This document shows, one piece after another, positions 58,857 through 61,226 of a stretch of 64,000 nucleotides of DNA (position 1 is the first letter of the stretch; each line of letters opens with the position of its first letter). Origin of the DNA: an uncultured Candidatus Saccharibacteria bacterium (lineage in GTDB: Bacteria; Patescibacteriota; Saccharimonadia; Saccharimonadales; Saccharimonadaceae); NCBI GenBank assembly GCA_946404545.1, contig CAMJDZ010000001.1, positions 62,001 through 126,000 of the forward strand, in the 5' to 3' direction. Under the pieces are notes generated by a model that worked only from the letters and a program-made list of their open reading frames with translations, made no database searches and was not told where the DNA came from. Position numbers and translations under genes: made by a program.

Positions 58857-58862
58857 ATCTTA
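58857..58862 (-). promoter_or_regulatory. -10 box, leaderless spacing
   Basis: TAAGAT on the minus strand, 6 nt to the ATG at 58850. Confidence 0.45.
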
Positions 58863-58902
58863 ACACAGACCAACACTGTTTTCGCAATAAGTAGCTTTCA
58901 TG

Positions 58903-58908
58903 TATAAT
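58903..58908 (+). promoter_or_regulatory. -10 box of the small-protein cassette
   Basis: TATAAT about 44 nt before the first start at 58952; the leader ends in GAGGTGATAACC. Confidence 0.55.
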
Positions 58909-58951
58909 GGCCTTAGCTTTATAGCGTACTTTAGAGAAAGAGGTGATAACC

Positions 58952-59137
58952 ATGCCGATCAAGATAGTTCCATTGAATAGGTCGCCTGTATATAAGGTGG
59001 GCAAACTTGTGCCCTGCGGAAAAATTACACAGGCACAGCTCGCGAGCCTCGAGATTAATGCTCGGTCAAGGCTCGATCAGAATGCCGATCGGCGCGCTTA
59101 TGGCGCGCGTATTGCTGGCGAATACCGGACGAGATAG
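58952..59137 (+). CDS. Small paralogue A of a three-gene cassette
   Basis: 61 residues from the ATG at 58952 with GAGGTG upstream. Starts MPIKIVPLNRSPVYKVGKL; the C-terminal helix is LASLEINARSRLDQNADRRAYGARIAGEYRTR in pieces (LEINARSRLDQN, RRAYGARIAGEY). It shares 'MPIKxVxL...GKL...LExxxRxxxxQNxxRRAxGAxxAxxYxxR' with the gene at 59334 and the same C-terminal pattern with 59147. Unknown family; single Cys, no TM. Confidence 0.75.
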   Translation: MPIKIVPLNRSPVYKVGKLVPCGKITQAQLASLEINARSRLDQNADRRAYGARIAGEYRTR

Positions 59138-59146
59138 GAGGTTGCT

Positions 59147-59323
59147 ATGTCGGAATTGAAGAAATTACAGGTCTGCCCGTATCGACCACCGGTCAGCGTC
59201 GAGGTCATTCCCGACGAAAAAATGCGTCCACTTGAGGAGGCGATTCAACGCCACCTGGATTACAACGAAGCCAGAAGGGCAGCTGGCAGAGTTAAGGCCG
59301 GCGAATGGATAGCCGGAGCTTAA
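59147..59323 (+). CDS. Small paralogue B of the cassette
   Basis: 58 residues, TAGGAGG 6 nt before the ATG, 9 nt after paralogue A. The N-terminus differs (MSELKKLQVCPYRPPVSVEV), but the C-terminal helix LEEAIQRHLDYNEARRAAGRVKAGEWI keeps the LExxI-N-xxRRAxG-A-E pattern of A and C. Function unknown. Three different N-termini on a shared helix hint at partner-specific binding (inference). Confidence 0.72.
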   Translation: MSELKKLQVCPYRPPVSVEVIPDEKMRPLEEAIQRHLDYNEARRAAGRVKAGEWIAGA

Positions 59324-59333
59324 GGAGGTGACT

Positions 59334-59522
59334 ATGCCGATTAAAACCGTAGAGCTCAAGGCAAAGCCGATTGGTCGTCCGATAGGAAAGCTCAAGCTCG
59401 TAAAGAGAGTGCCGTCCTCCGCCCTTGTTGGGCTGGAAAACGACATTCGGCGCGTTTGCGAGCAGAACGAAAGGCGTCGGGCGCAAGGCGCGCTACTTGC
59501 CGAAAAATATATCTGCAGGTAG
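59334..59522 (+). CDS. Small paralogue C of the cassette
   Basis: 62 residues, AAGGAGGTG upstream of the ATG at 59334, 10 nt after paralogue B. MPIKTVELKAKPIGRPIGKLK start, then LVGLENDIRRVCEQN and RRRAQGALLAEKYICR. Closest to paralogue A. Very basic. A terminator follows, so the three genes form one small operon. Confidence 0.75.
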   Translation: MPIKTVELKAKPIGRPIGKLKLVKRVPSSALVGLENDIRRVCEQNERRRAQGALLAEKYICR

Positions 59523-59532
59523 CAAATCACCA

Positions 59533-59561
59533 AAGGGGTCCGTCATGGGCCCCTATTTTTG
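59533..59561 (+). terminator. Intrinsic terminator of the small-protein cassette
   Basis: AGGGGTCC-gtcat-GGGCCCCT followed by ATTTTTG. Confidence 0.85.
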
Positions 59562-59585
59562 TTGCCACGCCCCACCCAAACCGCT

Positions 59586-59591
59586 TATAAT
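59586..59591 (+). promoter_or_regulatory. -10 box of the 59598 gene, leaderless spacing
   Basis: TATAAT, 6 nt to the ATG at 59598. Confidence 0.6.
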
Positions 59592-59597
59592 TAAACT

Positions 59598-61226
59598 ATG
59601 AGTGAGTCTTTTCATGGCCGCCGCGAGGTTGCCGCTAATCAGTTCGAGAAAACCGCAGAGTTCAAGGCGCGTGAACGCCTAGCTGAAATCGGGGTTTTCC
59701 AGAAAGTTAGCGACCTAGATTTGTATCACGGACGCGCCGGCGACGGAAGCGATAACTGGGAAGTTCAGCCAGATTTTAATAATTCCGGCGACAACACGGG
59801 CAATTTAAACATTAACCAAAAGCCAGCTCTAAACACCGGTAGCTATGAAACGGCAAGGGATTTCTCAGAAGCAAGAGCACGCCGAAAAGGCGGGGTTGCT
59901 GAGGTCCATAAAATTGAATCCGCCGATCCCGATGCAATGATTATTGATTTATCTTCATTTTCGCGCCTAACGGCTAATGAAAGAGCAGAAGTCGACCAGT
60001 TAATGCAGTCAATTTCCCCTACCCCAATTACCGGCGCACCTCTGAGTTTTGAAGATCGCGACAGCATCAACAAAACAAGAGGTCCAGGCGCTTTCATGAA
60101 TCAATATGGCCTAATGTTTAAAAACGAAGTCAGCAGTATAGCTCAACAATACGGCATCAGGAGTAGAACTGTGGAGCATGTCGGTTCCGCTATCAATACG
60201 CATTCCCTGATTGGCCGCGGTTTCCTTAAGGAGATTTGCTACGCTTTTTCGGACGACGAGCCGTCTATTTATCTTAGAGATAACAAGAAAAACGAGCATG
60301 AGGTTCCGATTAACCACGAATATTTCACGAACTGGCTAAGGGCTAACCACGTAGTGGGCTGCAAGATGGGCGTGCATTCCGCGACGCTCGGAAAGAAGAT
60401 CGATAATTACCTGCTCTTTGATTTGGAAAAGATTAATACGCCGGAAAAAAATGAGCAGCTCAACAAAGAGCGCAATCGCCGCTTTGGTAGGGTGGCCCGC
60501 GCGATGGGCGAGAAGCTCCGAGATCGACGCACTGAAGTCGTTAAATTACTGACGGAAAACCTTTACGCAAAGCCAGAAGAAATCGTCGAGGCAGCAAAGA
60601 AAACGCCTGGGTTTGAGAAAATTTTCGATGAAGACGCGGGGAACTGGGAAGGCTATAAACTAGGCGAGCATACAGAGACTGTGCTGCGGCTTTTTGACGA
60701 TAATTACGCCGATGCGATGCCTGCTGATACCCTGCCAATTATGCGCTTGGCGCTACTGACGCACGATATTGGCAAAGGCGAGGCCGCAAAGAAGCACGAC
60801 AAGGGGCGTCAGGATCTCTATAATGTCGTATACGCCGAGAATTTCATGCGCCTAAATGGCGTCGACGAGGATACGCGCGGTTTAGTCACAGCAATGATTA
60901 GCCGGGGCAAAAACTTAATGTCCGATTACAAGCTGAAGGGCGACAAGGACCCACAGCTGAAGGATAAATTAGGGAAAGAAATTAATAGATTCTGCGCAGA
61001 CTGTTTGGAACAGTATTTAGGCATTGAGCCAGACGGCGCGACGGTGACCGGCATGAGAACTATGCTCGAGGTGTTGCAAACCTGCGACAGCGCCGCATAT
61101 ACCACGATGGGCGTGACGAGGTCCAAGAGAGGCAACGGCATCATTTCTTACCGAAATGCCGGCTCATTCAATGGTTCATTCCATCCATTCCACGGCTTTA
61201 CTGGTCGCCGGGTTCGGATGAAATAA
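59598..61226 (+). CDS. HD-domain protein with ADP-ribosyltransferase-like N-terminal segment
   Basis: 542 residues. The C-terminal half has an HD signature: LGEHTETVLRLF, LALLTHDIGKGEAAKKHDKGRQ, and Asp in QTCDSAAYTTMG, as in HD phosphohydrolases. The N-terminal ~110 residues contain LYHGRAGDG...PALNTGSYETARDFSEARA, which resembles the YHGT...T.S...A..FA.A layout of ADP-ribosyltransferase folds (weak). The middle (~190-300) is unassigned. Single-gene unit, leaderless. The HD call is firm; the ART idea is speculative. Confidence 0.7.
   Translation: MSESFHGRREVAANQFEKTAEFKARERLAEIGVFQKVSDLDLYHGRAGDGSDNWEVQPDFNNSGDNTGNLNINQKPALNTGSYETARDFSEARARRKGGVAEVHKIESADPDAMIIDLSSFSRLTANERAEVDQLMQSISPTPITGAPLSFEDRDSINKTRGPGAFMNQYGLMFKNEVSSIAQQYGIRSRTVEHVGSAINTHSLIGRGFLKEICYAFSDDEPSIYLRDNKKNEHEVPINHEYFTNWLRANHVVGCKMGVHSATLGKKIDNYLLFDLEKINTPEKNEQLNKERNRRFGRVARAMGEKLRDRRTEVVKLLTENLYAKPEEIVEAAKKTPGFEKIFDEDAGNWEGYKLGEHTETVLRLFDDNYADAMPADTLPIMRLALLTHDIGKGEAAKKHDKGRQDLYNVVYAENFMRLNGVDEDTRGLVTAMISRGKNLMSDYKLKGDKDPQLKDKLGKEINRFCADCLEQYLGIEPDGATVTGMRTMLEVLQTCDSAAYTTMGVTRSKRGNGIISYRNAGSFNGSFHPFHGFTGRRVRMK

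Follow-up and report, generated by a model that had tools for sequence, protein, structure and literature searches.

We asked whether three tandem small open reading frames in a 64,000-nucleotide stretch of DNA (the window) from an uncultured Candidatus Saccharibacteria bacterium are genuine genes, how they are related, and what their products might do. All three lie on the forward strand: gene A (58952..59137, 61 aa), gene B (59147..59323, 58 aa), and gene C (59334..59522, 62 aa), with 9 nt between A and B and 10 nt between B and C. These coordinates and lengths match exactly a preliminary description of the locus, which had reported three tandem frames of about 60 residues with gaps of 9 to 10 nt. 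The strong Shine-Dalgarno sequence that it had assigned to each frame was found ahead of all three ATG codons (GAGGTGA for A, AGGAGGT for B, and AAGGAGGTGA for C). Upstream of A, a consensus scan placed a promoter-like site, TTCGCA-16-TATAAT, at 58881..58908 on the forward strand (10 of 12 positions). The cassette is closed by an intrinsic terminator (59534..59561, forward strand), a stem at 59534-59554 followed by a T run; this structure, previously noted as clear, has a folding z of -3.1, and the figure is -3.3 for G008, the nearest relative of the window's own genome (G000), where the stem is retained despite an altered sequence.

Two further candidate features were dropped: an antisense gene at 59165-59533 on the reverse strand, whose frame is broken in G008 (the spacer between B and C differs there by a 2-nt indel), and a conserved leader motif, which had 0 matches within the window. 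Downstream of the terminator, the window encodes a 542-aa protein with an HDIGK-type motif and without a Pfam match (59598-61226, forward strand). This HD-type gene has its own promoter-like site (59562-59591) and was found in 13 of the 45 genomes of the genus, G028 and G061 being those with two long copies. A link between it and the cassette was rejected, as the cassette appeared beside the copies of G000 and G008 only; this check covered a profile run on 33 loci and, for 10 of the 18 loci that matched, the frames on one side.

The three proteins have in common M1, L8, P12, an LE pair, N44, R47-R48-A49, G51, and A55. The C-terminal pattern that they had been said to share held in part: each protein has LE, N..RRA.G, and the later A, but protein A carries A in place of the I of LExxI, and the last aromatic position holds Y, W, and Y in A, B, and C, respectively. 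MPIKxV was seen only in A and C, B having a different N-terminus, as described before. The observed local alignment score was reached by 0 of 5000 shuffled sequences for A-C, 0 of 5000 for B-C, and 1 of 5000 for A-B. With BLASTP, A and C were 39% identical and A and B were 38% identical over 34 residues, and no match was reported for B against C alone. When single members were held out, profiles run on 2136 frames recovered A (E-value 1.6e-7), B (8.1e-7), and two proteins of a second locus described below, D (5e-5) and F (8.9e-5), the best unrelated frame reaching 0.25 to 0.5. In the same frame set, a profile of C and its G008 copy alone recovered A (3.5e-9), protein E (2.5e-5), B (0.0017), and protein G (0.0071), all ranking above the best unrelated frame, which stood at 0.36. 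Judged by these sequence comparisons, A, B, and C are true paralogues, and the shuffle tests together with the recovery of held-out members support the tandem paralogy proposed earlier.

We next consider where the family occurs. Real carriers of the cassette numbered 4 among 394 genomes of the bacterial family (G000, G008, G499, and G508). A first profile, built from A, B, C, and the G008 copy of C, detected G508 in this set and did not report G499. A second one (six proteins), run on 174 genomes of the genus to which G508 and G499 belong, matched three, of which G508 and G499 were kept and G506 was set aside. The third (eight proteins, again on the 394 genomes) matched six; G000, G008, G499, and G508 were real, and the matches in G441 and G565 were set aside because they lay in longer or broken frames. 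Within the window's genus, 5 of 45 genomes matched at E-values up to 0.5; only G000 and G008 were real, the other three matches being weak (0.13 to 0.18). With the first profile, which is less sensitive and may miss divergent copies, 17 of 392 genomes sampled from the order and 3 of 379 sampled across the phylum matched, G000 being the only real carrier in each; the genus, family, order, and phylum samples overlap one another. Weak matches with in-frame stops or within longer frames were set aside, many of them, not all, after inspection by reading.

In the GTDB-220 collection, 67 pattern matches led to a single locus, the G008 copy (JAFYZJ01, Candidatus Saccharibacteria bacterium RGIG7560, sampled from the omasum of a water buffalo). 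It carries part of B, plus C, on a contig that starts inside B, and its C is 89% identical to that of the window. G508 and G499 represent another genus of the same bacterial family and carry a two-gene cassette at a different locus. In G508 (L051), gene D (1307-1501) comes first and is overlapped by 10 nt by the last gene, E (1492-1680); in G499 (L059), gene F (1331-1501) and gene G (1501-1689) overlap by 1 nt. Such near-touching or overlapping genes (gaps of 9 and 10 nt, overlaps of 10 and 1 nt) suggest joint expression. Both two-gene units have Shine-Dalgarno sequences and, seen in the sequence, a 3' hairpin with a T-rich run, and TATAAT recurs, its spacing to the first ATG being close to that in the window.

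Among the gene types, A pairs best with D, and C pairs best with E and is also similar to G; neither two-gene cassette has a gene that corresponds to B alone. In a shuffle test that covered proteins A to E and left out F and G, the pairings A-D, C-E, and B-E were strong (0 of 3000 shuffles each), and A-E, B-D, C-D, and D-E were weak (66, 53, 88, and 154 of 3000, respectively). D and F, which are 36% identical, recovered each other by profile (1.3e-4 and 1.5e-4). The order of gene types is the same in the homologous cassettes of both genera and, given that A pairs best with D and C with E, the split between first and last genes predates the two genera. The preliminary description had held that a failure to find protein-level conservation in related genomes would count against its claim; conservation was found in three other genomes. 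The family is lineage-restricted, without annotation, coding, and present in several species, and the cassette forms its own, self-contained unit of transcription for two or three such paralogous small proteins. Its coding status, paralogy, conservation in two genera, and possession of its own promoter-like site and terminator are established.

The surroundings of the cassette bear on whether it came from a phage or plasmid, as a remnant or as cargo. Its locus is not the same in the two genera, which would suit such an origin. We found no window counterparts of the G508/G499-locus neighbours that were tested. The neighbours in G508 and G499 are, however, ordinary genes of the chromosome, among them a Ham1-family gene and, by reading, truB, and no match to the cassette proteins appeared in 50,697 phage records, in six IMG/VR scans, or in PHROGs. 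Plasmids gave none for C and one for E (E-value 0.4), a chance match lying antisense in a Burkholderia AraC gene. The suggestion that the peptides are phage-derived is therefore not supported, and a phage or plasmid origin, already disfavoured, is highly improbable. In G508, the cassette is flanked by a DNA-alkylation repair gene and the Ham1-family gene. The former (L057 7627-8361) sits between an upstream small gene and the cassette and is absent from this position in G499; a relative lies near a Ham1-family gene in G358 (L065 319-996, by reading). Upstream of the cassette, G508 and G499 share a divergent protein (L057 7160-7594 and L059 845-1228; 65% identity), whose G499 copy has no Pfam match.

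Searches of the eight members against Pfam, NCBIfam, PADLOC, and PHROGs gave nothing better than an E-value of 0.06, and the PDB gave nothing better than 0.4. We found no account of a tandem small-protein family in the open-access literature on small proteins of Saccharibacteria, CPR, and Patescibacteria. According to PMC10849945, Patescibacteria genomes hold about 62 novel families each, so a lack of matches is not rare in this phylum. Like the families described there, ours is unmatched, coding, and found in several species of a phylum rich in uncultivated members, but it adds paralogy within the cassette and an uneven rate of change.

This uneven rate was evident between G508 and G499, where purifying selection acts on the last gene and the first gene evolves fast. 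The pN/pS was 0.17 for E/G (bootstrap 0.09-0.30) and 0.61 for D/F (bootstrap 0.44-0.85) from the same two genomes; both ratios are rough, since pS (0.67 and 0.70, respectively) is near saturation and slightly above that of local genes (0.04-0.63, two antisense frames left aside). Changed codons were non-synonymous and synonymous in a ratio of 36:11 for D/F versus 14:21 for E/G (P 0.001). For C in the window versus G008 (C/C8), pN/pS was 0.75, with an interval of 0.19-3.77, and the non-synonymous to synonymous count of changed codons was 7:4, against 13:32 in the HD-type gene (Fisher P 0.04). The last 39 codons of B differed from G008 by 2 synonymous and 0 non-synonymous changes, and flanking genes had pN/pS of 0.11 (HD) and 0.10 (Ham1). 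The contrast between a fast first and a slow last gene comes from the one pair G508/G499; the G008 contig, starting inside B, offers no A for comparison. In PMC10849945, families were accepted at a dN/dS below 0.5; by pN/pS, E/G falls under this value, but D/F and C/C8 do not. Substitution rates typical of non-coding sequence had been named in advance as a refutation; in the pair G508/G499, the rates instead show the last gene to be constrained by purifying selection.

These rates also bear on the idea that the genes are young or decaying, weakly constrained and duplicated in place without a settled function. The ratio for C/C8, the low identity of D and F, and the very narrow distribution would all suit it. 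It is at odds with the constraint on E/G, with homologous pairs kept across two genera with frames, Shine-Dalgarno sites, and hairpins intact, and with the position of the one 2-nt indel between G000 and G008, which falls in a spacer; we therefore judge it unlikely. We also dropped the idea that the cassette was imported into G508 or G499 as a diverged island. Set against the Ham1-family gene (L057 8853-9500, L063 7956-8603), with its pS of 0.13, the cassette did look like one, but most surrounding genes lie at 0.3-0.63, and there is thus no need to invoke a swap-in of the cassette. The low synonymous divergence of the Ham1-family gene possibly reflects recent exchange; that of the gene at L057 530-1189 is lower still (pS 0.04).

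AlphaFold models of C (4 alignment rows) and E (8 rows) each contained a single C-terminal helix of 34 residues (28-61), with block mean pLDDT of 93-96 at its centre, a low-confidence N-terminal tail (pLDDT 57-67), and pTM of 0.41 and 0.42. A lone helix is a frequent outcome with short alignments. A ribbon-helix-helix fold, with an N-terminal strand followed by two helices, does not agree with these two models, which lack a strand, and no Pfam match pointed to it. A hydrophobic stripe, M31-L34-V38-C/L42, runs across the family. For the C/E/G type, 81 of 5000 column shuffles equalled the helical periodicity observed; amphipathic periodicity was weak when the seven proteins were taken together (320 of 5000), and neither A, B, and C (2288 of 5000) nor A, D, and F (3000 of 5000) showed it.

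Basic helical peptides could bind RNA or the ribosome, as a lineage-specific accessory factor like small ribosomal proteins. A, C, the G008 copy of C, and D are strongly basic (pI 10.2-10.6), but B, F, and G have a pI of only 7.7-7.9. One sub-threshold relative in a longer frame (G441, E-value 0.005), which we take to be bS20-like, has resemblance in a short basic stretch with QRRRA-like residues. This is a single weak match, however; none of the eight members matched bS20, bS21, or another ribosomal family profile in Pfam or NCBIfam at E-values up to 10, and occurrence in 4 of 394 genomes is unlike that of a ribosomal part. Such a role is unlikely.

A toxin-antitoxin-like or immunity module, pairing a paralogue that harms or blocks something with one that neutralises it, would account for an autonomous two- or three-gene unit of patchy occurrence with overlapping genes and a fast first gene, and type II toxin-antitoxin operons are similarly small, compact, and autonomous. 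The cassette departs from them in that its partners are paralogues, an unusual arrangement for toxin-antitoxin systems, and carry no known domain of this kind: in Pfam, NCBIfam, and PADLOC, the best match of the eight members in a search for such families was DUF6033 (E-value 0.08). An operator repeat is also lacking, with 0 inverted repeats of at least 6 nt in the window promoter region (58860-58955). In G499, an AGGGGT/ACCCCT inverted repeat spans the -10 element, and G508 has only short palindromes. The earlier opinion that this is not a typical toxin-antitoxin pair agrees with these findings, and we hold this explanation to be improbable as well.

Small tandem paralogues without a leader, several of them strongly basic, also bring to mind the multi-peptide leaderless bacteriocins, effectors that would be released against neighbouring cells. 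In PMC11580447, the prototype aureocin A53 is described as highly cationic, with five Trp, and as served by ABC-transporter-like machinery. The cassette proteins, by contrast, are hydrophilic (GRAVY negative in 8 of 8 members, -0.39 to -0.65) and have 0 to 2 Trp each, with none in 6 of 8; Pfam scans of seven window neighbours found no ABC transporter. In G508, two genes that by reading encode an ABC ATPase and a permease are more than 5 kb away from the cassette. We regard a bacteriocin-like role as very unlikely.

Our tentative preference is that the proteins are co-expressed subunits of a small hetero-oligomer, in which a variable protein joins a conserved one at the core. In favour of this stand the paralogy, the kept gene order, the rate contrast, the modelled helix, and the hydrophobic stripe; the low pTM and the weak or absent amphipathic periodicity count against it. 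The paralogues would be packed together through their C-terminal helix (residues 28-61), with the last-gene protein (C type) as the constrained core. The first-gene protein (A type) might then be the variable partner, tracking a changing target, either protein or nucleic acid, that its loose N-terminal tail would contact. B may be a later extra copy in the window's genus or may have been lost from the other genus. The small adaptor or regulator role proposed earlier is a possibility. Whether the cassette is an undescribed Saccharibacteria module, in which the constrained core is made along with a paralogue that diverges fast as it tracks a changing target, for instance a molecule of a host or phage, is more doubtful.

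Little is known of the biology of this phylum, to which the family adds a coding, multi-species, unannotated group of small proteins whose cassette order has persisted in two genera. The small size of the unit makes tests with synthetic or co-expressed proteins feasible. The most interesting part is the uneven rate of the paired genes: should this hold, the first gene may mark a changing outside pressure on these minimal genomes.
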